From the NCBI RefSeq assembly GCF_030814655.1, contig NZ_JAUSVK010000001.1, positions 441,043 through 505,042 on the forward strand: 64,000 nt of DNA. Direction: 5' to 3'. The notes under the pieces were generated by a model. It searched no databases and had not been told where the DNA came from. It saw nothing but the letters and a program-made list of their open reading frames with translations. This DNA is from Labrys monachus (GTDB taxonomy: Bacteria; Pseudomonadota; Alphaproteobacteria; Rhizobiales; Labraceae). This document shows positions 1,587-64,000 of this stretch, piece after piece. The translations under genes were made by a program, and so were the position numbers. The first letter of the stretch is position 1. Every line of letters begins with the position of its first letter.

Positions 1587-2348
1587 TCAATCGCTTCCCG
1601 GCGCAATGCGTTCGATCGCCGCCGGCTCGGTAATATCGATGCGCGGCCCGTCACGCATGGTGACGACGCCCCGCGCGCGGACGACGCTTCCCGTCAGCGC
1701 AGCCTGGCCAAGCCCGGCTGCCTCGAAGCGCGACCATTGCTTGCGGGGCACCGCAAGCGTCACATCCTCGCGCCACACCCTTCCAAAATCGATCCATACC
1801 GTCGTCTTGGTCATACCGATATGCTGAATGCGACCTCTCAAAATGGCGAAGCCATCCGCTTGGCGAGCAACAGATTCGGAAGCGTTCGCATCTGCGATTG
1901 CATAGCCCGGATCGGCCCAGAGGCCAAGACGGGCTTTTCGTGCATTTTCTTCCGCAGTCATTAATTGTCCGTAACAGGCCTCTTCGCCCGGAATCGGCCG
2001 GATGCGGGCCCTTCCCTGCGAGGCCAGGACGAGGGCGAGATCCTCTCCCTCCACATAAAGGCCCGCATGCAGGGCCCCGTGCCGATCGGGCGGGGCGGCC
2101 GACAGCAGGATGGCGTCTCGGCCGGCGAGCGCCGGCAGGCGCAGGGACGCCAGATCGAGACCGGCGATCTGGACCACGCGGCCATCGGCGAGCGTGAGGC
2201 GATTGTCGTCCCTCATGCCTGAAATCGTCACACTCTCGCCCATCCCCGCCGTAACTGCACAAGGATCCGCCAGAGCCCGGCAACTCGAGAGCGCGAGTGC
2301 TGTAACAATGGCCTGGATGCCTATTTTTTTGGCAGAACGAGCGCGCAT
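1587..2348 (-). CDS. SNase-like (thermonuclease-fold) exported protein
   Basis: About 253 residues with an N-terminal signal sequence. ALALSSC could be a lipobox, or cleavage could fall after RALA. The middle resembles a staphylococcal-nuclease domain: VTISGMRDDNRLTLADGR is followed by an EDLALVLASQGRARI strand-helix and a KARLGLW end. The usual catalytic arginine/aspartate positions in the first sheet look changed (QIAGLDLAS where active nucleases have RLxGIDxPE), so activity is doubtful. A second, OB-like segment fills the C-terminal 90 residues. The ATG at 2348 is preferred over a TTG at 2369 because GGAA sits 6 nt upstream. It precedes the M48 gene, a pairing that suggests a shared envelope role. 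Confidence 0.7.
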   Translation of the reverse strand: MRARSAKKIGIQAIVTALALSSCRALADPCAVTAGMGESVTISGMRDDNRLTLADGRVVQIAGLDLASLRLPALAGRDAILLSAAPPDRHGALHAGLYVEGEDLALVLASQGRARIRPIPGEEACYGQLMTAEENARKARLGLWADPGYAIADANASESVARQADGFAILRGRIQHIGMTKTTVWIDFGRVWREDVTLAVPRKQWSRFEAAGLGQAALTGSVVRARGVVTMRDGPRIDITEPAAIERIAPGSD

Positions 2349-2418
2349 CGATGATTCCGAAAGTGGCAAACGGCGATTTTTTCCTTGCTCATCATAATCT
2401 TAGCCTATGGGCTCGAGA

Positions 2419-6317: not shown

Positions 6318-7271
6318 GTGGCACGTCTCATTGCTTGGCGCATCTTCCAGGGAGTGGTGACGCTCTTCGCCATTTCCGTGATCATATTCCTGCTGACACT
6401 GGCGCTGCCGGGCGACGCGGCGACGGCGGTGCTCGGCCAGTCGGCCACGCCGGCGACGGTGGCTGCCTATCGGCACGACGTCGGCCTCGACCTGCCGCCC
6501 CTGACGCGCTACCTGTCCTGGCTGTGGAACGTGCTGGTCCATTTCGACTTCGGCAAGTCCTATACCAACCAGCGCGTCATCGTCGACGACCTGTGGCCGC
6601 GCTTCAAGAATACGATGTGGCTGGCCTCCTTCGCCACGCTGCTTTCCGTTCCGCTGGCGATCGTCACCGGCGTCACCTGCGCGATCACCGAGGGGCGCCT
6701 GTCCGACCGGGCCGCGAATATCGGCGCGCTCATCGCCATCTCCATGCCGGAATTCTTCGTCGGCGGCGTGCTCATCCTGCTCTTCACCGGCAAGGGCATG
6801 TGGTTCCCCCCGACCGCCAGCAACGTCACCGCGGACATGGGCTTCTGGGCACGGGTGTTCGCGACGTTCCTGCCCGCCGTCGCCATGACGTGCCTGGTCT
6901 GCGCGCATATGATGCGCATGACGCGCAACTCCGTGCTGTCGATCATGTCGACGCCCTATATCGAAATGGCCTTCCTGAAGGGCGTGAAGCGCAGCCGCGT
7001 CGTCGCCCGCCATGCCCTGCCGAACGCCGCTTCCCCGATCATTTCGGTGGTGGCGCTGAACATCGCCTATCTGGTGGTGGGCGTCGTGCTCGTCGAGAAG
7101 GTGTTCACCTATCCGGGCGTCGGCCAATACATGATCGACGCGGTCAGCAAGCGCGACATCCCGGTCATCCTGGCCTGCGGCCTGCTCTTCGCCGCGATCT
7201 TCATCATCCTGAACACCATCGCCGACGTCTTGGCGATCATCCTCAACCCGCGCCTGCGGCATCCACGGTAA
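6318..7271 (+). CDS. ABC transporter permease, DppB/OppB type
   Basis: A 317-residue inner-membrane permease. N-terminal TM helix AISVIIFLLTLALPGD is followed by a periplasmic loop and five more hydrophobic segments. The cytoplasmic coupling motif is EMAFLKGVKRSRVVARHALP (EAA-loop type). A GTG start at 6318 is supported by GGAAAGGA 7 nt upstream. It pairs with the next permease, whose start lies 10 bp after this stop, to form the heterodimeric channel served by the upstream binding protein and downstream ATPase. Confidence 0.93.
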   Translation: MARLIAWRIFQGVVTLFAISVIIFLLTLALPGDAATAVLGQSATPATVAAYRHDVGLDLPPLTRYLSWLWNVLVHFDFGKSYTNQRVIVDDLWPRFKNTMWLASFATLLSVPLAIVTGVTCAITEGRLSDRAANIGALIAISMPEFFVGGVLILLFTGKGMWFPPTASNVTADMGFWARVFATFLPAVAMTCLVCAHMMRMTRNSVLSIMSTPYIEMAFLKGVKRSRVVARHALPNAASPIISVVALNIAYLVVGVVLVEKVFTYPGVGQYMIDAVSKRDIPVILACGLLFAAIFIILNTIADVLAIILNPRLRHPR

Positions 7272-7281
7272 TGAGGGCGGC

Positions 7282-8136
7282 ATGAGAATCTTCGGACACA
7301 AAGCGCCCCCCACGGCCGTCATCGGCCTCGGCATCATCCTGCTCAACATCCTGGTGGCGCTCATCGGCCCGTCGCTGATGCGTTATTCCGACACCCAGAT
7401 CGTCGGCAAGATGTTCCAGGGCATCTCGGCGACGAGTTGGCTGGGCACGGACAGGATCGGCCGGGACATCCTGACCCGGCTGGTCTACGGCGCACGCCTG
7501 ACGATCGGCATCGCCCTCGTCACCACTCTCCTGTCCTTCGCCATCGGCATCACGCTGGGCCTGATCGCCGCGGTGACGGGCCGGTGGATCGACGTCGTCC
7601 TTTCCCGCCTGGTCGACATCGTCCTCTCCATTCCCTCGCTGATCTGGGCGCTGATCATCCTCGGTATTTTCGGCCAGTCGCTCACGTCGCTGGTCCTGAC
7701 CCTGGCCTTCCTCGATTCGACGCGCGTGTTCCGCCTGGCCCGTGCGCTGGGCATGAACCTGGCCGCACTCGATTTCGTGGAGGTGGCGCGGCTGCGCGGC
7801 GAGGGGCTCTGGTGGGTGGTGCGGCGCGAAATCCTGCCCAACGCCATGGCGCCCCTGCTGTCGGAATTCGGGCTGCGCTTCTGCTTCAACTTCCTGCTCA
7901 TCGCGGCCCTGAGCTTCCTCGGCCTCGGCGTGCCGCTGCCTTTGTCCGATTGGGGCGGCATGGTGCGCGACGACATGCAGAGCCTGGCGCTGCATCAGTC
8001 GGTTCCGTCGATGTTCTCGGCTTCGGCACTCTATCCCGCCGCTGCGATCGCCCTTCTGACCGTCGGCATCAATCTCGTGGTCGACTGGTTCCTGTCCATC
8101 GATGCCCGCCCCTCCGGCGCGCAGGCCGAACTGTAG
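7282..8136 (+). CDS. ABC transporter permease, DppC/OppC type
   Basis: A 284-residue second permease of the importer. It begins with a single N-terminal TM helix (VIGLGIILLNILVALIG), then GTDRIGRDILTRLVYGAR, the conserved GTDxxGRD motif of DppC proteins, then five TM helices with the coupling loop EVARLRGEGLWWVVRREILP. GAGGGCGGC precedes the ATG. The gap to the next gene is 9 bp, which indicates one operon. Confidence 0.93.
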   Translation: MRIFGHKAPPTAVIGLGIILLNILVALIGPSLMRYSDTQIVGKMFQGISATSWLGTDRIGRDILTRLVYGARLTIGIALVTTLLSFAIGITLGLIAAVTGRWIDVVLSRLVDIVLSIPSLIWALIILGIFGQSLTSLVLTLAFLDSTRVFRLARALGMNLAALDFVEVARLRGEGLWWVVRREILPNAMAPLLSEFGLRFCFNFLLIAALSFLGLGVPLPLSDWGGMVRDDMQSLALHQSVPSMFSASALYPAAAIALLTVGINLVVDWFLSIDARPSGAQAEL

Positions 8137-8145
8137 GGAGCTGAC

Positions 8146-9819
8146 ATGGACCAGACAAATACGGACCAGAACCACCCCTCTCCGAAGGCTCCGGGGCCAA
8201 GCGGGGCGGGCAAGGACGATTTCATCCTCCAGCTCGAACAGCTGCGGGTCGAAACCATCACCGGCCGCGTTCTCGTCGACAATGTCGACGTCACCCTGCG
8301 GCCAGGCGAGATTCTGGGGCTGATCGGCGAGTCCGGGGCGGGCAAGTCCACCATCGGCCTGGCGTCGATGGCCTATGCCCGTGCCGGCATGCGCATCACC
8401 GGCGGCACCATCATGCTCGACGGCAAGGAGCTGCGCGCCTCGACCGCGGCGCAGCGCCGGGTGATCCGCGGCAAGAGCATCGCCTATATCGCCCAGAGCG
8501 CCGCCGCGTCGTTCAACCCGTCGATGACCCTGATGGACCAGGTCTGCGAGGCGCCGGTGATCCACGGCGTGATGACGCGGACGGAAGCGGAAGCCTATGC
8601 GCGCAAGCTGTTCCGCACGCTGCAGCTGCCCAATCCCGATACGATCGGCAGCCGCTACCCGCATCAGGTGTCGGGCGGCCAGCTCCAGCGCGCGATGGCG
8701 GCGATGGCGATGAGCTGCCGGCCGGACGTCATCGTGCTCGACGAGCCGACGACGGCGCTCGACGTGACCACGCAGATCGAGGTCCTCGCCCTGCTGCGCG
8801 AGCTCATCCGCGAATTCGGGACGGCCGGCCTCTACATCACCCACGACCTCGCCGTCGTGGCGCAGATCGCCCATCGCATCATGGTGCTGCGCCACGGCAA
8901 GATGGTGGAGGTGGGCGAGGCCCGCCAGATCCTGGAACAGCCCAGGACCGACTATGCCCGCGCCCTCGTCAACGAGCGGCGCGACGCCGAGCATCTGCAG
9001 CTGACCGAGCCGGTGCGGGATGCCCGTCCCGTCCTCAGCCTGACCAAGGTCACAGCCGGTTACGGGCCGGTGGCGGTGGTCAAGGATGCATCCTTCGTGC
9101 TCGCCAAGGGCGAGACGCTGGCGGTGGTCGGCGAATCCGGCTCGGGCAAGAGCACGATCGCCCGCATCATCGTCGGGCTGCTGCCGCGCTGGGAAGGCGA
9201 CATCACGCTGGACGGCAAGAGCCTCGCGCCGGCTCTCGGCCGCCGCAGCAAGGACATCCTGCGCCGGCTGCAGATGGTGCACCAGATGCCGGACGTGGCG
9301 CTCAATCCGCGCCAGACCCTGGCGCAGATCATCGGCAGGCCGGTGAAATTCTACTTCAACCGCTCGGGCGCGGACATCCGCAAGCGGGTGCTGGAACTGC
9401 TGCGCCTCGTCGGCCTGCCGGAGGATTTCGCCGACCGCCGACCCGGCCAGCTTTCCGGCGGCCAGAAGCAGCGCGTATGCATCGCGCGGGCGCTCGCGGC
9501 CGAGCCGGAGGTGATCATCTGCGACGAACCGACCTCGGCGCTCGATCCGCTGGTGGCCGAAGGGGTGCTCAAGCTGCTCAAGAAGCTGCAGGACGAGCTC
9601 GGCCTCGCCTATATCTTCATCACCCACGATCTCGGCACGGTGCGTCGCATCGCCCACCGCACGGCCGTGATGCTGAAGGGCGAGATCATCGCGCAGGGCG
9701 CCACCGCCGACATCTTCTCGCCGCCCTTCCACCCCTATACGGAGAAGCTGATCAGCTCCGTGCCGGAGATGGACACGCATTGGCTCGACCATATTCTCGA
9801 GGAGCGCAAGATCCTCTGA
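8146..9819 (+). CDS. Double ABC ATPase (fused DppD-DppF type)
   Basis: A 557-residue protein with two complete nucleotide-binding domains, so a single gene replaces the usual dppD and dppF pair. Domain 1 has Walker A GESGAGKST, signature VSGGQLQRA and Walker B VIVLDEPTTALD. Domain 2 has GESGSGKST, LSGGQKQR and VIICDEPTSALD. Both H-loops (YITHDLAVV, FITHDLGTV) are intact. A low-complexity N-terminal 25 residues precede domain 1. It energises the two permeases upstream. Confidence 0.94.
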   Translation: MDQTNTDQNHPSPKAPGPSGAGKDDFILQLEQLRVETITGRVLVDNVDVTLRPGEILGLIGESGAGKSTIGLASMAYARAGMRITGGTIMLDGKELRASTAAQRRVIRGKSIAYIAQSAAASFNPSMTLMDQVCEAPVIHGVMTRTEAEAYARKLFRTLQLPNPDTIGSRYPHQVSGGQLQRAMAAMAMSCRPDVIVLDEPTTALDVTTQIEVLALLRELIREFGTAGLYITHDLAVVAQIAHRIMVLRHGKMVEVGEARQILEQPRTDYARALVNERRDAEHLQLTEPVRDARPVLSLTKVTAGYGPVAVVKDASFVLAKGETLAVVGESGSGKSTIARIIVGLLPRWEGDITLDGKSLAPALGRRSKDILRRLQMVHQMPDVALNPRQTLAQIIGRPVKFYFNRSGADIRKRVLELLRLVGLPEDFADRRPGQLSGGQKQRVCIARALAAEPEVIICDEPTSALDPLVAEGVLKLLKKLQDELGLAYIFITHDLGTVRRIAHRTAVMLKGEIIAQGATADIFSPPFHPYTEKLISSVPEMDTHWLDHILEERKIL

Positions 9820-9892
9820 CGGCGGAGCCGCCTGGAGCCGGCCCCGCGCACCGTTCGATCACCTATTCATTGCATCGTTCCCGGATTTGACC

Positions 9893-11893
9893 ATGAGCGC
9901 CGTGCGCACCCTCGAGCATTTCTTCATTCCCCTCGCGGACGGCACGCGGCTGGCGGCGCGGCTCTGGCTTCCCGCCGACGCCGAGGCCCGTCCGGTGCCG
10001 GCGATCCTGGAATATATCCCCTACCGCAAGCGCGACGGCACCCGCGGCCGCGACGAGCCGATGCATGGCTGGTTCGCCGAGAACGGCTATGCCGCCATCC
10101 GCGTCGACATGCGCGGCAGCGGCGAATCCGACGGGCTGATGGACGACGAATATCTGCCGCGGGAGCTGGACGACGCCTGCGAGGTGATCGCCTGGCTGGC
10201 GGCGCAGCCCTGGTGCTCCGGGTCGGTCGGCATGATGGGCAAGAGCTGGGGCGGCTTCAACTGCCTGCAGGTCGCCGCCCTCCGCCCGCCGGCCCTGAAG
10301 GCGATCATCACGGTCTGCTCCACCGACGACCGCTACGCCGACGACATCCATTTCATGGGCGGCACGCTCCTCAACGACAATCTGTGGTGGGGCGCCATCA
10401 TGCTCGCCTATCAGGGGCGGTCGGCCGATCCCGCCTTGGTGGGAGAGGGCTGGTACGAGCAATGGCTCCGGCGCCTCGAACACCTGCCGTTCTTTCCCGC
10501 TCTGTGGCTGGCGCATCAGCGCCGGGACGCCTATTGGCGCCATGGCTCGATCTGCGAGGATTTCTCGGCCATCGCCTGCCCGGTGTTCGCCGTCGGCGGC
10601 TGGGGCGACGCCTATACCAATGCGATACCGCGCATGCTCGAAGGGCTCGGCGTGCCGCGGCTCGGCCTGATCGGACCCTGGGCCCATATCTATCCGCAGG
10701 ACGGCGTGCCCGGCCCCGCGATCGGCTTCCTGCAGGAGGCGGTGCGCTGGTGGGACCATTGGCTGAAGGGCGAGGATCGCGGCATCATGGCCGAGCCGAT
10801 GCTGCGCGCCTTCGTCGAGGAGTGGACGCCGCCCGGCCATCGCGATCCCGTGCCGGGCCGCTTCGTCGGCGAGGCTGTCTGGCCCTCGCCGCGGATCGGT
10901 CCGCGGACCTTCCATCTGGGGCCCGGCGCCCTGCTGGCGCAGTCGGGATCCTCGGAAGAAATCGCCTTCTCCTCGCCGGCCTGGACCGGCTCGGCGGCGG
11001 GCGAATGGATGGGGACGGGGGTTCCCGGCGAGGAGCCGGCCGACCAGCGGCATGATGACGCATTCTCCTGCGTGTTCGACAGCGACGCCCTCACGGAGCG
11101 GCTCGAACTGCTCGGCGGCGCCGAACTCGAAGTGGCGCTTTCCTCGGACAAGCCGCTCGCCCAGCTCTGCGTCCGGCTCTGCGACGTCGCCCCGGACGGC
11201 TCGTCGCGACGCGTCGCCTATGCGGTGCTCAACCTCACCCACCGCGACAGCCACGCCGAACCCGAAGCGCTCGTGCCGGGGCGCTTCTACGACATCGGGC
11301 TCAAGCTCAGCGATTGCGGCTATGCCTTCGCGCCCGGGCACAAGGTCCGCCTGGCGTTCTCGACCGCCTATTGGCCGCTGATCTGGCCGGCGCCGGAGGT
11401 GGCGACGCTGACGCTGCGCTGCCCGGGCCGGCTGCACCTGCCGGTGCGGGCCATGGACACCGCCGAGCCCGCCGTAACCTTCGAGCCGCCTCGCAGCGCC
11501 GCACGCGCTCCCGTCACCCAGGTCGCCCTGGGCCGGATGACGCGCACCCACACGCTCGACCTTCTCACGGACACCGCGACCTATGTCACCCATGGCGAGG
11601 GCGGGCTGTTCGGCGAGGGGGTGCTGCGCTTCGACGACATCGACACCACGCTGTCGCACAGCCTGAGGCGTGAATTGACCGTCAAGGGCAGCGATCCGCT
11701 CAGCGCGCGCTATCGCCTGACGCAGGAATACGAGATGGGACGGGAGAATTGGGCCATCCGCCTGGAAATATCGACCTCCATGCGCGCTTCAGCCGACGTT
11801 TTCTTCCTGGAGGGCGAAGTCAAGGCCTTCGCCAACGGCATTCTCGCGGCAGAGCGGCGCTGGGAGGAAAGCCTTGCGCGGGACCTGTTGTGA
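9893..11893 (+). CDS. CocE/NonD-family serine hydrolase (X-Pro dipeptidyl-peptidase-like)
   Basis: A 666-residue alpha/beta hydrolase of the CocE/NonD/PepX_C type. The nucleophile elbow GKSWGGF sits near residue 120, after RVDMRGSGESDG, the oxyanion-side motif. The C-terminal half (about 320-560) is the jelly-roll domain of this family. Members act as esterases, acylases or X-prolyl peptidases. An ATG at 9893 is preferred to a TTG at 9887. The gene lies 73 bp behind the importer ATPase on the same strand, so it probably hydrolyses the imported compound in the cytoplasm. No signal peptide is seen. Confidence 0.88.
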   Translation: MSAVRTLEHFFIPLADGTRLAARLWLPADAEARPVPAILEYIPYRKRDGTRGRDEPMHGWFAENGYAAIRVDMRGSGESDGLMDDEYLPRELDDACEVIAWLAAQPWCSGSVGMMGKSWGGFNCLQVAALRPPALKAIITVCSTDDRYADDIHFMGGTLLNDNLWWGAIMLAYQGRSADPALVGEGWYEQWLRRLEHLPFFPALWLAHQRRDAYWRHGSICEDFSAIACPVFAVGGWGDAYTNAIPRMLEGLGVPRLGLIGPWAHIYPQDGVPGPAIGFLQEAVRWWDHWLKGEDRGIMAEPMLRAFVEEWTPPGHRDPVPGRFVGEAVWPSPRIGPRTFHLGPGALLAQSGSSEEIAFSSPAWTGSAAGEWMGTGVPGEEPADQRHDDAFSCVFDSDALTERLELLGGAELEVALSSDKPLAQLCVRLCDVAPDGSSRRVAYAVLNLTHRDSHAEPEALVPGRFYDIGLKLSDCGYAFAPGHKVRLAFSTAYWPLIWPAPEVATLTLRCPGRLHLPVRAMDTAEPAVTFEPPRSAARAPVTQVALGRMTRTHTLDLLTDTATYVTHGEGGLFGEGVLRFDDIDTTLSHSLRRELTVKGSDPLSARYRLTQEYEMGRENWAIRLEISTSMRASADVFFLEGEVKAFANGILAAERRWEESLARDLL

Positions 11894-50273: not shown

Positions 50274-50310
50274 CTGACCGGCACACCGGTGGGCGGGTCC
50301 CCGACCCGCC
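50274..50310 (+). repeat. Hairpin repeat R2, left copy
   Basis: CTGACCGGCACACCGGTG is followed by GGCGGGTC-CCC-GACCCGCC, an 8-bp stem. The same unit appears inverted at 55057-55105, so the four-gene membrane operon is bracketed. The 261 bp from here to the operon (50311-50571) show no gene and no clear promoter; an A7 tract lies at 50389-50395. Confidence 0.7.
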
Positions 50311-50571: not shown

Positions 50572-52074
50572 ATGCCGTCCGACGTTTCCCGTTCCCCGTC
50601 GACACAGTTTCGGACGCCCAACTTGAAAAGCAATGCCCTTCTTCGACTGCTGCAAGGCGTAAGGAAGCCTTCGCCGGACAAACGGCCTTCGATCGAGACC
50701 TTCCCGGATCTCGACGTCGACCGCATCGCCCGCGACCTCGGCCTCGAAAAGCAGGGGCGCGAGCGCGGGCGCAACGAGGAGCCGCCGACCGCCTCGCCCT
50801 CGATGGACCGGGTGGAGGCGCGCATCGTCGAGCGGATCGAGGCTGAGAAGAAGGCGGCGCACACCACGGTCGAGAACGAGCTGCGCACCTATGTCGAGCG
50901 CCTCTCCGCCCTCGATTTCGAGGGCCGGTTCAGCGAGATCCGCCAGACGGCGCCGGCCTGCGTCGGTGAATTCAAGGCCGAGATCTCCTCGGGCCTCGAC
51001 GAGCTCTACGGCCTGCGCCGCGGCGTGCGCGATCTCGACGAGGAGCAGCAGAATTTCCGCCGCAAGCACCGGATCGACCGGACCGCGCGGCTGCAGCAGG
51101 GCGCCTCGACCTTCCTGAAAGTGGCGCTGCTGATCGTGCTGTTCATCGTCGAGGCGATCGTCAACGGCAATTTCCTGGCCAAGGGCAGCGAGCAGGGCCT
51201 GCTCGGCGGCGTGACGGAGGCGATCTCCTTCGCCAGCCTCAACATCGTGGGAACCCTGATCATCGCCATGTACGGGGTGCGCCAGCTCAACCACCGCAAC
51301 ATCTTCCGCAAATTCATCGGCCTCGCCGCCTTCGCCTTCTACCTCGTCTTCGCCTTCACGCTGAACATCACGCTCGCGCATTACCGCGACGTGTCGGCGA
51401 CCTTCGTCGAGGGCGGCGGCGAACGCGTGCTCCATATTCTCGCCACCGAGCCGTTGCATCTGAACGATCTCAATTCATGGGTGTTCTTCGCCATCGGCAT
51501 CCTGTTCTCGATCATCGCCTTCATCGACGGGCTGTCGCTGTCGGATCCCTATCCGGGCTACGCCCAGCTCCAGAAGCGCCTCGAAGATGCGCGGCTGGAC
51601 TATTCGGAGCGCAGGGCCGAGCTCGTCGACGCCCTGCGCGACGTCCGGGACGAATATCAGGAGAAGATGGACGAGATCAGCCGCGACCTCTCGGCCCGGC
51701 GCAGCGAGTATGACGCCATCCTCGCCGGCCGCGCCCGCATGGTGAACCTGTTCATGCAGCACCAGAACCATCTGGAGCGGGCGGGCTCGGTCCTGCTCGG
51801 CATCTACCGCGATGCCAACGTCAAGGCGCGGACCAGCGAGCCGCCGGCGCGCTTCGCGCTTCCCTTCACGTTGGAGCGCATCGTCGTCGAGGCTGGCGGG
51901 GCGGGGGAGTGGAAGGCCGACGAGCTACGGGCCCGCGTCGGCGCCATCCAGGACATGCTGACGACGGAAGTGCAGGAGATCCACAAGGTGTTCGAGGCGG
52001 CGATCGACCGATACGCCCAGCTTGAGAACGTCGTGCCGGAGCCCGGAGCAGCCGATGGCTCGAAGGCAGCGTAG
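50572..52074 (+). CDS. Four-TM membrane protein with coiled-coil C-terminus, operon gene 1
   Basis: A 500-residue inner-membrane protein that I do not recognise. A charged soluble N-terminus (about 1-175) is followed by TM helices at about 181-203, 218-239, 247-268 and 301-322. A coiled-coil region follows (DYSERRAELVDALRDVRDEY) and a C-terminal helical domain (from about 440). The start is uncertain: ATG 50572 lacks a ribosome site and TTG 50623 has only GGAC. It overlaps the next gene by 20 bp. It probably forms the scaffold of a membrane complex with the three genes after it. Confidence 0.75.
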   Translation: MPSDVSRSPSTQFRTPNLKSNALLRLLQGVRKPSPDKRPSIETFPDLDVDRIARDLGLEKQGRERGRNEEPPTASPSMDRVEARIVERIEAEKKAAHTTVENELRTYVERLSALDFEGRFSEIRQTAPACVGEFKAEISSGLDELYGLRRGVRDLDEEQQNFRRKHRIDRTARLQQGASTFLKVALLIVLFIVEAIVNGNFLAKGSEQGLLGGVTEAISFASLNIVGTLIIAMYGVRQLNHRNIFRKFIGLAAFAFYLVFAFTLNITLAHYRDVSATFVEGGGERVLHILATEPLHLNDLNSWVFFAIGILFSIIAFIDGLSLSDPYPGYAQLQKRLEDARLDYSERRAELVDALRDVRDEYQEKMDEISRDLSARRSEYDAILAGRARMVNLFMQHQNHLERAGSVLLGIYRDANVKARTSEPPARFALPFTLERIVVEAGGAGEWKADELRARVGAIQDMLTTEVQEIHKVFEAAIDRYAQLENVVPEPGAADGSKAA

Positions 52075-52882
52075 GGTCCGCGGCCGTCGTTCGGGCGGCG
52101 CGGCGAGCATCGTCCTCGGCTCCCTTCTCCTGGTGCTCGCGGCCGTGGTCGGCGGCGGCTTCGCCTATCTCAAGTTGACGACGCCGGCGCCCCCCAAGCT
52201 CGAAGCGGGCACGCTCTGCCCGGTGGACGGGCCGCGCTCGATCACCGTCGTGCTCGTCGACGCCTCCGACGACCTGCCCGAGGCCGGGCGGCAGGAGGTG
52301 CTGACCCGCCTTGCGGACATCGCCGACACGCTGCCCCAATATGGGCGCCTGGAGCTGCGCGTCCTCTCGCCGGACGTTCGCGGCGGCCTCGTCAAGTTCG
52401 ACAGGTGCAATCCCGGCGACGGCTCGACCGTCGATGCGCTCACCGGCAACCGGCAGATGGCGCAGAAGCGCTGGGCGGACGGCTTCAAGGCGCCGCTGCA
52501 GGCCGCCCTGCTTGCCGAATTCTCGCCCGCGAAGGCGGAGGTCTCGCCGATCATGGAGACGATCCAGGCGATCGCCATCGACCGCTTCACCGGCCGGGCG
52601 GCCGAGACGATCCCCAAGCGCCTGGTGATCGTGTCCGACATGATCGAGCACGAGCGGGCCTATTCGCAATATCGCGGCGATCTCAGCTATGATCGCTTCC
52701 GCGCCTCGCCGGCCTACCGCCAATACCGCACCGATCTCGGCGGCGCGACGGTCGACATCGAATATGTGCAGCGGACGAAGCCGCCGATCGACGGGCGGGC
52801 GCATATGGCCTTCTGGCAGGCCTGGGTCCACGACAATGACGGCATTTGGGGCGCGGCCGAGAAATTGCAGGGAGTGAACTGA
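52055..52882 (+). CDS. Membrane-anchored vWA-like protein, operon gene 2
   Basis: A 275-residue protein with a basic N-terminus and one TM helix (SIVLGSLLLVLAAVVGGGFAY), leaving the rest in the periplasm. The domain looks von Willebrand A-like: ITVVLVDASDD is a variant MIDAS strand (Asp-x-Ser), and RLVIVSDMIEHE is the central strand with Ser-Asp. The two cysteines (GTLCPVDG, FDRCNPGD) may pair. It overlaps gene 1, and gene 3 follows 1 bp after the stop, so the operon is tight. vWA domains often bind partners in a metal-dependent way. Confidence 0.75.
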   Translation: MARRQRRVRGRRSGGAASIVLGSLLLVLAAVVGGGFAYLKLTTPAPPKLEAGTLCPVDGPRSITVVLVDASDDLPEAGRQEVLTRLADIADTLPQYGRLELRVLSPDVRGGLVKFDRCNPGDGSTVDALTGNRQMAQKRWADGFKAPLQAALLAEFSPAKAEVSPIMETIQAIAIDRFTGRAAETIPKRLVIVSDMIEHERAYSQYRGDLSYDRFRASPAYRQYRTDLGGATVDIEYVQRTKPPIDGRAHMAFWQAWVHDNDGIWGAAEKLQGVN

Positions 52883-52883
52883 C

Positions 52884-53969
52884 ATGGCGCGGCCGAGGAT
52901 ACGGAACGCGGCAGCCGACATCTTCGGGCCCCTGCTCTTCAGCCTGATCGTGCTGGCGGGCTGCTTCTACATCGTCGCCTCGAAGATCCAGCACTATCCG
53001 GCCTGGCTGGTGACGTCCGCCCCGGTGGCGCTGATGCTCGTCTATGCTGCGATGCTGCTTTCCCTGCGCGCCTTCCGGCTCCGGCTCGATCACGCCGCCG
53101 ACAACCTCTATTACATGGGCTTCCTGTTCACGCTGACCAGCCTCGGCGTCTCGCTCTACCAGTTCCGCGCGGAGGGGCCGGCCGAGGAGATCGTGCAGAA
53201 TTTCGGCGTCGCCATCGCCTCGACCATCGCCGGCATCGCCCTGCGGGTGCTGTTCAGCCAGATGCGTCAGGACCCCCACGACATCGAGCAGACCGCGCGG
53301 CTCGAACTCTCCGAGGCCGCCCGGCGCGTCCGGCGGGAGCTCGACGCCGCGGTCATCGATCTCGCCAATTTCCGGCGCGCGTCGCAGCAGATGCTCGTCG
53401 ACGGGCTGACGGATGTGCGCGGCGGCATGGCGGCGACGGCGACCCGGATGATGGAGGATTTCGCCGGCCTCACCGCCAAGGCCGCCGAGCCGCTCGAAGC
53501 GACCTCCAGGGTCTCCAGCGACACGCTGGCGGCGCTGGCGAAGTCGGCCGAGGAAAGCGTACAGGCTTCGGCCCGGCGCCTGGCCGCGGAAACCGACCAC
53601 CTCGCCGAGGGCACGCGGCACATTTCCGAATCGTTGGAGACGACGTCACGCCAGCTGGCCGCGGTGCAGACGCCGACCCAGCTCATCGAGCTCAAGCTCG
53701 AGCCCGTGCTGCGCGATCTCTCGGCGGCCGTCGCCGACCTCGCCCGTCGCGCCGACATCGGCGCCGAACGCGAGGGAGCGGCGTCGGCGGCCCTGGCGCA
53801 GGCGCAGAAGATGCAGGTCGAACAGAGCGAGCGGCTCGGCGAGCTTTCGGCGGCCATCGCCGCCCTGACGCGCCAGATCGAGACGACGACGGGCGTGCCG
53901 GTCAAGCGGAGGGCCTTGCGGCAGAAGCTGGTCGCGTTGTGGGACAGGAAGGCGGAGCCTGCCAAATGA
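52884..53969 (+). CDS. MotA/ExbB-like membrane protein with coiled-coil tail, operon gene 3
   Basis: A 361-residue protein. TM helices are at about 14-34, 43-62, 76-95 and 110-128. The segment YYMGFLFTLTSLGVSLYQF followed by NFGVAIASTIAGIALRVLF has the Gly-x-x-F-T and A-S-T-x-x-G patterns of the two pore helices of MotA/TolQ/ExbB/ZorA proteins. The C-terminal 230 residues are a long helical coiled coil, as in ZorA. The stop overlaps gene 4 by ATGA. It is probably the five-fold ring subunit of an ion-driven stator with gene 4. The assignment rests on pattern only. Confidence 0.72.
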   Translation: MARPRIRNAAADIFGPLLFSLIVLAGCFYIVASKIQHYPAWLVTSAPVALMLVYAAMLLSLRAFRLRLDHAADNLYYMGFLFTLTSLGVSLYQFRAEGPAEEIVQNFGVAIASTIAGIALRVLFSQMRQDPHDIEQTARLELSEAARRVRRELDAAVIDLANFRRASQQMLVDGLTDVRGGMAATATRMMEDFAGLTAKAAEPLEATSRVSSDTLAALAKSAEESVQASARRLAAETDHLAEGTRHISESLETTSRQLAAVQTPTQLIELKLEPVLRDLSAAVADLARRADIGAEREGAASAALAQAQKMQVEQSERLGELSAAIAALTRQIETTTGVPVKRRALRQKLVALWDRKAEPAK

Positions 53970-55015
53970 CGACGCAGACCTCGATCGGCACCGACCGGCG
54001 GGCGTTTCGCAAGGGCGTCGTCCTCGGCCTGACCATGGCCGAGATCATGCTGCTGCTGATCTTCTGCCTGCTGATCGCAGCCTCCGTCGTGTTCCAGCGC
54101 GAGCACAAGGCCAATCAGGACCTCGCCGCCCGGCTCGCGGAGAAGAGCGAGGATCTCGACCGGGCGATCGCCGACAGGAACGGCATGGCCCGCCTCGCCG
54201 AGGCCGCGCGGCGCGGCACCGCCGACGCGCCGGCGGCGGGCGACGACTGGCGCAAGCTCGTCGAGGCCCAGCAGGCGGTCGCGCGCCTGGGGGAGGCCGG
54301 CCTCACGGTCCAGCGCGTCACCGACCAGGCGCAGAAGCTCGCCACGGTGGTGCCCCTGCTGGAGCAGGGCGCGACCGCCTCGCAGATCCGCCAGGCACTC
54401 GACCAGTCGCACGAGCTGCGGCAGAGCCTCGAGGCCGCCGATCTCAGGACGGCTTCGATGGCCGATATCGCCCGCTGGGCCGCGATCGGCAAGCAGGCGG
54501 AAGCCGACCGGGGAGGGGGGCGCGGGTCGCATGACTGGCCGCCAATCGTCAGCCTGAGCGAGGCGAAGGGCTATCACTTCCCCGTCGCCAGCGCCGAGCT
54601 GACGCCGGATTTCGAGCAGAAGCTGAAGTCGAAGGTGGTCGACGAGGTCGCTTCGATCGTGGCCCGCTACGACGTCGACGTGGTCGAGGTGATCGGCCAT
54701 ACCGACGAGCAGCCGATGAACGCCGGCGGTTCCAACCTCGATGCCCGGCTGGTGCCGGCGCTCAGCGGCAAGGTGCCGATCGACAGCCTGTCTCCGGCCG
54801 ACAATGCCGGCCTCGGCATGGCGCGCGCCGTCTCGGTCGCGCGGGTGCTCAAGGCCGATCCCCGCCTCAGGGGCGTGACGGTGCTGCCGATGTCGGGGGG
54901 GCAGATGATCCTGCCGGGCGATACGCTCACCGACGGCACGTCGGGCGGCGACGTCCAGGCCCGCCGGCGCATCGAGATCCGCATGCGCCGCTCCGAAGGC
55001 CGGATCGCACCCTGA
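53966..55015 (+). CDS. MotB/ZorB-like protein with OmpA domain, operon gene 4
   Basis: A 349-residue protein. A single TM helix (LTMAEIMLLLIFCLLIAASV) has Glu26 at the position of the ion-carrying aspartate in MotB/ExbD (F-I-D-V-M or Y-A-D-L-M there, M-A-E-I-M here). A coiled coil covers about 45-180. The C-terminal OmpA-like peptidoglycan-binding domain contains VEVIGHTDEQP and ARRRIEIRMRR. It completes the operon with gene 3 as a likely MotAB-like stator pair. It is not a flagellar MotB: no motility gene is nearby. Confidence 0.83.
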   Translation: MTTQTSIGTDRRAFRKGVVLGLTMAEIMLLLIFCLLIAASVVFQREHKANQDLAARLAEKSEDLDRAIADRNGMARLAEAARRGTADAPAAGDDWRKLVEAQQAVARLGEAGLTVQRVTDQAQKLATVVPLLEQGATASQIRQALDQSHELRQSLEAADLRTASMADIARWAAIGKQAEADRGGGRGSHDWPPIVSLSEAKGYHFPVASAELTPDFEQKLKSKVVDEVASIVARYDVDVVEVIGHTDEQPMNAGGSNLDARLVPALSGKVPIDSLSPADNAGLGMARAVSVARVLKADPRLRGVTVLPMSGGQMILPGDTLTDGTSGGDVQARRRIEIRMRRSEGRIAP

Positions 55016-55056: not shown

Positions 55057-55105
55057 GGCGGGTCGGGAGACCCGCCCACCGGTGCGCCGGTCCCCTGACC
55101 GGCAC
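55057..55105 (-). repeat. Hairpin repeat R2, right copy (inverted)
   Basis: GGCGGGTC-GGGA-GACCCGCC, then CACCGGTGCGCCGGTC and TGACCGGCAC, is the reverse complement of 50274-50310 with small changes. It lies 41 bp after the operon and may be its terminator. The broken Rrf2 gene begins about 100 bp on. Confidence 0.75.
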
Positions 55106-60713: not shown

Positions 60714-63700
60714 TCAGAACTTCCAGCCGACCGTGCCGTGGACACCCTGGTCCTGGGTGTCCTTGCCGAACTGGCCGGTATAGGCGATGTCCACCGTCAT
60801 GGTCTGGGTCACCGCGGCGCCGAGGCCGGCCTCGACGACCGCCGCGTCCTGGGCGATCGGCACGCCGGCGACGGAGAACGGGCTGGAGCCGTCGACCGTG
60901 AAGGTGCTGGTCGGGGTGATGTTGCCGAAGGCGTGGCGCCAGCCGAGGGTGCCGTTTGCCGTCATCCCGATGCCGCTGAGATCGAAGGCCAGCGAACCGC
61001 GCATGCCGAGCGTCGAGAAGGTGACGCCGGTGTTGCTGCTGCGCGCGGTGAGCGCAGCCTCGCCGCCCTTTTCGGTGAAGCCGTCGGTATGGAGGTTGAC
61101 ATAGGCCAGGCCCGCGAAAGGCTCGAAGCTGGCAGTGCCCGCATCGATCTTGTAGCCGACATCGCCGAAGACCTGCGCCGTCGCGGCATCATACTTGCCG
61201 TGGAGGGTGTCGGCGAAGTCGGGCAGCACCACATAGCGGTCGGTGCTCACAGTGTGCCAAGTGTAGCTGCCGCCGGTCCGAAGGCCGAGCGGTCCCCACT
61301 GGTTGCCGGCATAGAGGCCGACATTGTAGTCGTCGCTCGAACCGGACGAATTGCGGCCGTCGATGCTGAAGTCCGACTGGCCGTAGCCGCCGAGGATGCC
61401 GACCCGCCAGGTGTCGAACACACGGGTATCGATGCCGAGCAGGACCCCGCCGATCGAATGATCGACCGTTGCGGCATTGCCGTCGCCGTCGACATGGCCC
61501 CAGGAGCCATAGGCCCGGCCCCAGGCGGTGACGCCGTCGCCCTCGCAGAACGGGTCGTTCTGCGGACCGACATGGTTGGACCGGATGCCGGTATTGCTGC
61601 CCCCGGTATCGCAGAGGGCCTGCCGCAGCCGATCCGTCACGGCATCGCGGGTGATGTCGCTCTCACCGATCAGCACCGACTTGGTGGAGGCGTAGGCCTC
61701 GCCCGAAAGCTGGTTGAAGGCGGAGCGCGCATCGGCGTCGCTGGTGAGCGACCCGATGACGTTGTGGAGGTTGTTGTCGCCGGGAAGGCTGTCGAGGCCG
61801 GCCGCCGTGGCGATTTCATTGCGCGTCACGCCGGCCGCGGCGAAGGCCCGGTCCTGCGTCACGGTTTCCGTGATGGCGTGCGGGTTGCCCACGTCGTCGT
61901 AGCCGGCGGTCACCCCGTAGAAGGCTGTGCCGACGAAAGTGTCGTACTGGCCGACGACGCCGCCCGCCGCGGTCAAGACGGTGATGGGCGTGTTCAGCGG
62001 CACGTCGACCAGACCGTTGGGCGAGGTGGCGATCGATAAGGTGGCATTGCTCTGGATGGTGGCGACGCCGCTCACCGCGATCAGATCATGGATGCCGCCG
62101 GCGCCGACCTGGGCTTCATAGGTCGAGCCGCTTTCCTGCGTGAAATCGCCATTGACGGTCAGGGTGCCGATATCGGCGCCCCCATTGCCGCCGGGCCGGA
62201 CGATCGAACCGGCCTGGGCATCGAGGGAGCCGTCGGCCGGCGAGGCGGCGGCGGTTCCGATGGTGCCGGTGCCCGATAGGATGCCGCCGCTTCCCAGCGT
62301 CACCGCCGACGTCACGGAACCGTCGAGTTCGAGGGCGGCGCCGGTCACCGTGGTGGCGCCGGTATAGGTGTTGGTGCCGTTCAGGACTTCGCTGCCGCCC
62401 GAAAGCGTCAGCCCGCCGGTGCCGCCGATGGTGCCGCTATAGGTGTCGTGCGCATCCGTCAACGTCAGGAACTCGGCGCCCAGATCGACGGCGCCGGTGC
62501 CCGACAGACTCTTGATCGAGGCGCCGGCCGTGGTGGCGGAGATGTCGAAAGTGGTGCCGTCGGCGAGAGCCAGGCCGCTGGAGGCGGCGATGCTGCCGAG
62601 GCCGGACAGCGCCAGGGTGCCGCCGGAGACCGTCGTCGAGCCGGTATAGGTGTTCAGGCCGGACAGGATCAGCGTGCCGTCGCCGGTCTTGACGATGTCG
62701 CCGGCCGGCGTGCCGTCGCCGATGACGCCGCTGAGCGTGTCGGTCAGGCCGGTGCCGACATTGACCGTCGGGTCGCCGTCGATGACGATGTCGTTGGCGA
62801 CGGTGTAGGTGCCGGCGGTGAAGTCGAGCGTCGTGCCGGCCGCCATCTCCAGGACGCCGGTGCCCAGCGCGGTGTCGTTGCCGACCGCGATCGTGCCGTT
62901 CTGCAGTACCGTGCCGCCCTGATAGGTGTTGGCGCCGGAAAGCGTCAGCGTGCCGTCGCCGATCTTGGCCAGTTTCCCGCTGCCCGACAGAACGCCCGTC
63001 CATGTCGCGCCGAGGCCGTTGGTGTCGATGATCGACGGCCCGCTTCCCCCGAGCGTGGCATCGACGTCCGTCGCCAGGGCCGAACCGGTGACCTGGATGC
63101 CGCCGTCGTTCCAGTTGAACACGTAGGTGCCGGTCGCAGCGCCCCCGCCATAGCGCTCGGCCAGCGACGAACCGCCGATCTTCAGAATGCCGCCGTCGAG
63201 ATCATATTCGCCGTTGCCGTAGCCCGACAGATAGAGCGTGGTGGTGTTGGCGACGGAGAGGACGCCGCCGGTCTGGACGATCTTTCCGGTACCGGCCGTG
63301 CCGGGGTCGGCTGCGCTGCTGTCGCCGATGACGAGTTCGGTTGTCACCAGGCCCGTATTCGTCAGATCCAGCTCGCCGCCACTGATGTTCAGCGTGCCGG
63401 TGCTTTGACTATGGCCGGTGGTATTGCGGCCGATATCGAACATGCCGTCGTTGAGGGTGAGCGTGCCGCCTTGCAGGTTGTAGATGCCGGTGCCGCCCTG
63501 GTTGCCGATGTTCAACAGGGCGCAATGGGCGCTGGTCCCGCAGCCATCGGTGATCAATACGGTGCCGCCGCTCTGGGTCACCGTGCCGGTGCCGCCGAAA
63601 TCGCCGACCTGCAGGCCCGTAGTGAAGGTGAGCGAGCCGCCGCTGATGTTCAGATTGCCGGTATGGCCCGTGCCTTCGCCGACCGCCAGGTAGCTGATCT

Positions 63701-64000
63701 GCGTCGTGCCGCTGGTCTGCGCCATGGCGCCGCCGTTGATGTAGGCTTCGCCGTGGTTGATCGTCGCGCCGTCGATCGTCAGCGTGCCCGAACCGGTCTT
63801 GGTGAAGGTGCCGTAGCTGCCTTGCCAGCCGTCATTGGTGTTGTCGATGGTGCCGGAGAAGCTGCTGTCGGTGTTGTCGCCGCCGACGACGAGCGACTTG
63901 GTGCCGTTCTCGATCGTGCCGCTGCCGGCAAGGCTGCCGACAGTCGCGCCCGACGTCGTCGCGGAGATGTCGAAAATCGTGCCGGCACCGAGCGTCAGGC
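60714..64000 (-). CDS. Autotransporter 3, partial (5' end beyond the window)
   Basis: The frame is open from the right edge to a stop at 60714, giving 1095 residues without the N-terminus. The segment from 64000 down to the first internal ATG (63725) is clearly the same passenger (LTLGAGTIFDISATTSGATV), so that ATG is not the start. The passenger is beta-helix made of autotransporter-associated strand repeats (LSGANTYQGGTVL, LSGLNTYTGSTTV, LNGTNTYTGATTV). The last 280 residues are a barrel (GVTAWGRAYGSWGHVDGDGN through GVHGTVGWKF) with terminal Phe. One cysteine pair in the passenger (DGCGTSAHC) is unusual. Monocistronic, with its own terminator. Confidence 0.9.
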   Translation of the reverse strand, partial: LTLGAGTIFDISATTSGATVGSLAGSGTIENGTKSLVVGGDNTDSSFSGTIDNTNDGWQGSYGTFTKTGSGTLTIDGATINHGEAYINGGAMAQTSGTTQISYLAVGEGTGHTGNLNISGGSLTFTTGLQVGDFGGTGTVTQSGGTVLITDGCGTSAHCALLNIGNQGGTGIYNLQGGTLTLNDGMFDIGRNTTGHSQSTGTLNISGGELDLTNTGLVTTELVIGDSSAADPGTAGTGKIVQTGGVLSVANTTTLYLSGYGNGEYDLDGGILKIGGSSLAERYGGGAATGTYVFNWNDGGIQVTGSALATDVDATLGGSGPSIIDTNGLGATWTGVLSGSGKLAKIGDGTLTLSGANTYQGGTVLQNGTIAVGNDTALGTGVLEMAAGTTLDFTAGTYTVANDIVIDGDPTVNVGTGLTDTLSGVIGDGTPAGDIVKTGDGTLILSGLNTYTGSTTVSGGTLALSGLGSIAASSGLALADGTTFDISATTAGASIKSLSGTGAVDLGAEFLTLTDAHDTYSGTIGGTGGLTLSGGSEVLNGTNTYTGATTVTGAALELDGSVTSAVTLGSGGILSGTGTIGTAAASPADGSLDAQAGSIVRPGGNGGADIGTLTVNGDFTQESGSTYEAQVGAGGIHDLIAVSGVATIQSNATLSIATSPNGLVDVPLNTPITVLTAAGGVVGQYDTFVGTAFYGVTAGYDDVGNPHAITETVTQDRAFAAAGVTRNEIATAAGLDSLPGDNNLHNVIGSLTSDADARSAFNQLSGEAYASTKSVLIGESDITRDAVTDRLRQALCDTGGSNTGIRSNHVGPQNDPFCEGDGVTAWGRAYGSWGHVDGDGNAATVDHSIGGVLLGIDTRVFDTWRVGILGGYGQSDFSIDGRNSSGSSDDYNVGLYAGNQWGPLGLRTGGSYTWHTVSTDRYVVLPDFADTLHGKYDAATAQVFGDVGYKIDAGTASFEPFAGLAYVNLHTDGFTEKGGEAALTARSSNTGVTFSTLGMRGSLAFDLSGIGMTANGTLGWRHAFGNITPTSTFTVDGSSPFSVAGVPIAQDAAVVEAGLGAAVTQTMTVDIAYTGQFGKDTQDQGVHGTVGWKF

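Follow-up and report, generated by a model that had tools for sequence, protein, structure and literature searches.

What might a stator-like pair of membrane proteins be doing in one operon with two partners that match no known effector? The question is raised by four genes at positions 50572–55015 of the forward strand in a 64,000-nucleotide stretch of the Labrys monachus genome (a single contig of 6.92 Mb), hereafter the window; all features of the operon given below lie on the same strand. Gene 1 (50572–52074) encodes 500 amino acids of no known family, gene 2 (52055–52882) encodes 275 residues with one transmembrane (TM) helix and a predicted periplasmic von Willebrand A (vWA) domain, and genes 3 (52884–53969) and 4 (53966–55015), of 361 and 349 residues, encode the stator-like pair. 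The genes are tightly packed, with overlaps of 20 bases between genes 1 and 2 and of 4 bases between genes 3 and 4, and a gap of 1 base between genes 2 and 3. Both the positions of the open reading frames (ORFs) and an independent codon-usage gene caller, which chose the same four frames, uphold the overlapping or abutting arrangement given in a preliminary description of this DNA. The four proteins have 4, 1, 4 and 1 TM helices, respectively, according to family-averaged hydropathy and a structural model of gene 3, whose third helix is polar, falls below the hydropathy threshold and was counted from that model. The operon is best read as an undescribed Zorya-like system of Alphaproteobacteria.

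The case for a motor starts with gene 3. In hhalign comparisons, its family matches the ZorA profile with an E value of 6.6e-4, and with E 1.3e-4 over 99 columns when more diverse members are included, in the correct TM2–TM4 register, which places FLFTLTSLGVSLYQF on ZorA TM3 and FGVAIASTIAGIALRVLF on TM4. Comparisons with genes 1, 2 and 4 gave E values of 0.018 or higher, and the ExbB, TolQ and MotA proteins of relatives gave no significant match to gene 3 (E 0.38). The AlphaFold2 model of gene 3, with a predicted local distance difference test (pLDDT) score of 90–96 over TM1–TM2 and lower values in the helical tail, was aligned by VIA-align with the solved ZorA chain 8vvn_D at Z 9.4 (root-mean-square deviation (rmsd) 2.1 Å, 92 residues, 17% identity), a value that helical bundles can reach, so that the fold match supports the assignment but does not prove it. 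PomA and several entries for ExbB and TolQ align as well. The TM3–TM4 pore-helix region (53088–53267) contains the invariant motifs DNLYYMGF..T..S and FG.A..T..G, with invariant columns at D73–F80, T83, S86, F107, G108, T114 and G117; Thr83, Ser86 and Thr114 are thus conserved as a polar ring would require. Pfam gave no match to gene 3, PF01618 (MotA_ExbB) included; a strong PF01618 match had been anticipated, and it is the ZorA-level profile and the fold comparison that support a stator instead. The long helical C-terminal tail is variable in length (family proteins of about 324–629 amino acids), which refines an earlier picture of a 4-TM, MotA/ExbB-like, long-tailed protein that the fold and the ZorA profile otherwise sustain. 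Sequence searches of the PDB, both single-sequence and profile, returned coiled-coil noise of the tail only, and a ZorA match within the tail was not counted, being of that kind. The assignment of gene 3 as a ZorA-like stator subunit, and with it that of the motor, is well supported.

The second subunit is gene 4, in which one TM helix is followed by a helical linker and an OmpA-type domain. A profile search matched it to PomB (E 1.9e-5), and single-sequence scans returned OmpA, TssL and MotB models, all below cut-off; the OmpA family PF00691, expected to match strongly, also stayed below cut-off. The TM helix carries a glutamate, Glu26 (codon at 54041–54043), that is invariant in 36 of 36 aligned members, and the helix sequence GLTMAEIMLLLIFCLLIA can be motif-aligned with ZorB ISIADLMxGLMxxFLLI (AEIMLLLIF against ADLMxGLMxxF), which sets the glutamate against the ZorB aspartate. 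In the OmpA-type domain, Asp247 of a GHTD motif (54704–54706) and Arg287 (54824–54826) are invariant and occupy what we take to be the positions of two peptidoglycan-binding residues of OmpA. Judged from its sequence, gene 4 is a ZorB/PomB-like subunit with a predicted OmpA-type peptidoglycan-binding domain. The proposed layout of a single TM helix with a carboxylate and an OmpA-like domain therefore agrees with the PomB and OmpA profiles and with Glu26, and profile and fold comparisons bear out the wider proposal of a MotAB/ZorAB-like stator pair accompanied by two unassigned partners. S. fredii NXT3 carries a second OmpA gene upstream, which proved not to be a paralogue of gene 4.

Of the two partners, gene 2 is the more readily described. 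Its AlphaFold2 model (pLDDT 88) has a vWA fold that Foldseek recognizes with a probability of 1.00 and that VIA aligns with 4fx5 at Z 13.0 (rmsd 3.1, 161 residues); the domain spans residues 58–275 (52226–52879). Cys55, Cys118, Asp69, Asp72, Ser194 and Asp195 are invariant, and the two cysteines are consistent with a periplasmic location. The model describes a vWA fold on a membrane anchor, in line with the TM-anchored, vWA-like protein of the preliminary description. Gene 1 has TM helices at approximately residues 184–202, 218–236, 248–266 and 304–322, and its helical N- and C-terminal parts are probably cytoplasmic. The alignment of its 36 members has a mean column identity of 51%. No similar family was present in any library scanned, and single-sequence and profile searches of the PDB gave no match for gene 1 or gene 2.

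Genes 1 and 2 also occur without the motor. At ten sampled loci, the pair is found without genes 3 and 4; eight of the ten genomes have no gene 4 relative anywhere, a further one (G186) has a marginal, OmpA-level match only, and another genome (G378) combines a pair-only locus with a separate full operon on another contig. Such loci mark genes 1 and 2 as a separable module, and we infer that the motor was joined to this module. A single genus of the order contributes five genomes with the pair but without genes 3 and 4 (loci L145, L146, L147, L158 and L160); at L145 the pair sits among housekeeping-type genes. A distant motor-less pair (L149, 4285–6629) adjoins VirD4/TraG-like and MobA-like genes (6919–8544 and 9323–10966), and these neighbours suggest that conjugative or mobilizable elements may also carry the pair.

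Whether the four genes form a unit was addressed by comparing loci across genomes. A gene 3 search of genomes sampled at one per species gave 106 related stretches, of which the best 80 were kept; genes 1-2-3-4 retain their order and strand in 79 of these 80 loci, and the 80th is truncated by a contig end. The source genera include Bradyrhizobium, Rhizobium, Mesorhizobium, Ensifer/Sinorhizobium, Microvirga, Beijerinckia, Stappia, Pannonibacter and Tistrella, among others. Because the 80 loci had been chosen by gene 3, gene 1 was used as an independent query; it found 16 strong matches, counting the one in the window's own genome, among 397 genomes of the order, and the whole unit is present in all 14 of the 14 gene 1 loci that were re-fetched with wider flanks. 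Given this conservation across many genera, the four-gene unit is real and not a product of chance, and the conserved order suggested earlier is confirmed. More distant complete units lie on Paracoccus plasmids and in other Alphaproteobacteria, and in a 398-genome sample of the phylum the matches are confined to Alphaproteobacteria. Pairwise family distances correlate at 0.89–0.94 among the four genes, which indicates that they travel together. Their presence is patchy: of the four other genomes that belong to the window's genus, one carries the operon. Viral collections gave no match to gene 3, and the sole match to gene 1 there, a 23,019-base contig called viral, was set aside, as it is probably contig G249:C12, whose length is identical.

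A nuclease recurs next to the operon. On annotated plasmids, a 'thermonuclease family protein' is repeatedly encoded beside it, and when the loci are grouped into 37 lineages (gene 1 under 85% identity), a staphylococcal-type nuclease (SNase) is the most recurrent flanking ORF cluster, found in 18 of the 37 and placed directly upstream, divergently, or downstream in the same or the opposite orientation. Twenty operon-bearing genomes contain 47 SNase matches (2.35 per genome), and in seven of the twenty an SNase lies within about 1.5 kb of the operon, as opposed to about 0.07 expected (P ~1.5e-12). Most of the linked nucleases have a hydrophobic segment at the N terminus, for export or anchoring, and retain the core VDGDT / R..GIDAPE / R. 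In one genome (G490; L151, 12338–13804), gene 4 and the SNase form a single ORF, in the order TM helix with its glutamate, OmpA domain, linker of about 20 residues and SNase, with no second signal peptide; the lost signal peptide speaks against a mere error at a stop codon. No SNase occurs in the loci that have genes 1 and 2 alone. The earlier statement that the operon comes with no known effector therefore stands for the window and falls for related loci, where a periplasmic thermonuclease recurs and is once fused to gene 4. Of the undescribed functions first considered (defence, envelope tension or a surface machine), the recurrent nuclease and the fusion shift the likely one towards defence against incoming DNA and away from general envelope tension.

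The setting of the operon is also rich in defence genes. All genes within 7 kb of it in the 37 lineages, 386 in total, were compared with PADLOC models at a threshold of E<1e-70. At least 12 of them match defence models, as opposed to 0 of 298 control genes from random, mainly chromosomal 18-kb regions of operon-bearing genomes (Fisher P 0.0017). The flanking systems include HerA-DUF4297 (L067), a CBASS cyclase with E1-E2 (L096), AbiEi/AbiEii (L036), SNIPE/PD-Lambda-1 (L116) and PDC-S37 (L056 and L076). S. fredii NXT3 has a homologue of SNIPE close to the operon. As for Zorya effectors, the flanks yielded one weak, helicase-level ZorD match (1.4e-11) among the families shown.

How does this unit compare with known systems? 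Scans with PADLOC, NCBIfam, Pfam and PHROGs gave no significant family for genes 1–3 and sub-cut-off OmpA/MotB matches only for gene 4, which agrees with the preliminary description in that the four genes match no named system, and in the literature covered, paper searches on the four-gene system or on a role of SNase in defence against phages brought up no description that fits. Similar to ZorA, gene 3 combines a TM core with a long helical tail; similar to ZorB, gene 4 combines a single TM carboxylate with an OmpA/Pal-type domain; and the defence-island setting is shared as well (PMC11890865, PMC8565338). The TM aspartate of ZorB (D24/D21) is essential for defence (PMC11890865), whereas gene 4 has a glutamate; the carboxylate is kept, so its function may be kept. 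Zorya types I–III combine ZorA and ZorB with ZorCD, ZorE or ZorFG, whereas here the stator pair is accompanied by a 4-TM protein and a vWA protein of the periplasm, and by linkage to an exported SNase that in one genome is fused to gene 4. The ZorAB-like unit thus departs from Zorya in two defining respects, the known effectors and the TM aspartate. The MotAB/PomAB and ExbBD/TolQR motors resemble it in the predicted fold of gene 3 and in the TM/OmpA layout of gene 4, but gene 3 lacks a significant PF01618 or MotA/ExbB profile match and the operon has no flagellar, Ton or Tol context. SNIPE (PD-Lambda-1, DUF4041), a membrane-located nuclease that cuts DNA during injection, provides a conceptual precedent for a nuclease acting at that step (PMC13190303), although it is a single protein with a GIY-YIG nuclease on the cytoplasmic side and no motor.

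We lean, with restraint, towards a defence against incoming DNA in which a Zorya-like motor, the gene 1–2 module and an exported nuclease would act on the periplasmic side. Genes 3 and 4 would assemble into a 5:2 ion-driven inner-membrane motor of the ZorAB/MotAB kind, with the OmpA-type domain of gene 4 gripping peptidoglycan, ions passing at the gene 4 glutamate within a ring of gene 3 Ser/Thr residues, and the helical tail of gene 3 projecting into the cytoplasm. Genes 1 and 2 would form a paired module joined to this motor, with the vWA domain as a likely periplasmic sensor or force-coupling adaptor. An invader that disturbs the envelope, most probably a phage injecting its genome and possibly DNA entering by another route, would open the motor, after which the exported staphylococcal-type nuclease would cut the entering DNA within the periplasm; for the window's copy, an unlinked nuclease may serve, or the motor itself may be the effector. 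A Zorya-like mechanism of this type seems the simplest, with the peptidoglycan-gripping motor, the vWA domain and the nuclease all predicted to act in one compartment. Tentatively, the system could go further and represent a distinct class of immune motor, in which a 5:2 stator, a vWA sensor and a periplasmic SNase cut phage or plasmid DNA before it reaches the cytoplasm and self is told from non-self by compartment alone.

Several observations weigh against a periplasmic, Zorya-like defence. In about half of the lineages, among them that of the window, no nuclease adjoins the operon, and the sole SNase-domain match in the window's genome, a 260-residue, exported-looking protein at window positions 1587–2369 (reverse strand), approximately 48 kb upstream of the operon, looks degenerate and seemingly lacks the usual catalytic motifs. 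SNases are commonly encoded in accessory DNA, the 37 lineages are not fully independent of each other, and a search for further gene 4–SNase fusions found none beyond the single genome. The control regions being mainly chromosomal, the defence enrichment partly reflects accessory DNA in general. None of the operon's genes, genes 1 and 2 included, is matched by a model of the Zorya effectors (ZorC–ZorG). For gene 3, the Z of 9.4 with ZorA lies within the range of the helical-bundle background, and Foldseek alone gave no significant match to the monomer, with several MotA/PomA chains among its weak matches.

Among other explanations, we consider it unlikely that the operon serves a non-defence transduction of force across the envelope, in which the motor would drive the vWA protein against peptidoglycan or the outer membrane and the nuclease would scavenge DNA or phosphate. 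A force-transducing role has been proposed for vWA proteins next to TolQ-like 5:2 motors (PMC12204202), and gene 2, with its vWA domain, single N-terminal TM anchor and position beside a motor A subunit, resembles them; a PBP1A gene upstream of the operon on pRL11 of R. johnstonii 3841 (RL_RS31080–31100), SH3-domain genes recurring in four lineages and the retention of motor-less genes 1 and 2 in several genomes of one genus fit the same idea. As opposed to those transducers, however, the TM helix of gene 2 (IVLGSLLLVLAAVVGGGFA) has neither the SHLS/His motif nor a TM aspartate, and the operon has a true B subunit, an additional gene 1 and a ZorA-like, not TolQ-like, core. Force transduction would also leave the patchy distribution, the defence-rich flanks, the recurrent nuclease and the gene 4–SNase fusion as points against it. 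Less probable still is a role of the same motor and periplasmic nuclease as a barrier to DNA that arrives by conjugation or natural uptake (plasmid exclusion), and not to phages. Gene 1 is present on 24 plasmid records, 15 of which are conjugative or mobilizable, the distant gene 1–2 pair lies beside VirD4-like and MobA-like genes, and the nuclease is exported, all of which suit such a barrier; against it, many copies of the operon are on large chromosomal contigs, the neighbouring systems of tested function are mainly anti-phage and no entry-exclusion family was matched. It is improbable that the operon is strictly a divergent subtype of Zorya, in which genes 1 and 2 take the place of ZorCD, ZorE or ZorFG and act like them on the cytoplasmic side: ZorA is the best profile match of gene 3, the gene 3 tail is long and helical and gene 4 is predicted to bind peptidoglycan, but ZorC–ZorG are absent, glutamate replaces aspartate, PADLOC ZorA/ZorB scores are insignificant, and the vWA domain and nuclease are predicted to be periplasmic, whereas the known Zorya effectors are cytoplasmic.

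The Zorya motor is structurally understood, and how it senses invaders and what its rotation is for are still open. If the favoured reading, defence on the periplasmic side, is right, a related motor with periplasmic partners and a nuclease fused to its peptidoglycan-binding subunit would put both sensing and destruction in the periplasm, with a distinction of self from non-self by location that can be tested. It would also add to what little has been charted of immunity in rhizobia and other Alphaproteobacteria and assign a predicted role to the families of genes 1 and 2, and the motor-less pair offers a natural means to separate sensor from motor.

Some further features of the neighbourhood are recorded here. 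In Mesorhizobium and Ensifer, a small conserved family with the motif GVGVSVGVRGLRIGTGPRG, DUF4236-like by eye, occurs beside or near the operon (L056, L064, L071, L076, L087, L089 and L103). A membrane-anchored SH3-domain protein, possibly a peptidoglycan-linked accessory, adjoins the operon in four lineages (L119, 14634–15389; also L041, L065, L067, L073, L080 and L086). In the window itself, an inverted pair of the 24-bp GC-rich repeat GACCGGCRCACCGGTGGGCGGGTC flanks the operon at 50276–50299 (forward strand) and 55069–55092 (reverse strand). The two were rejected as ends of a mobile element, being just 2 of 16 dispersed genomic copies (two mismatches or fewer); the repeat is REP-like and a possible route of insertion. 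Downstream, the window encodes an autotransporter-like protein of 1003 amino acids with repeated passenger units (60714–63725, reverse strand).

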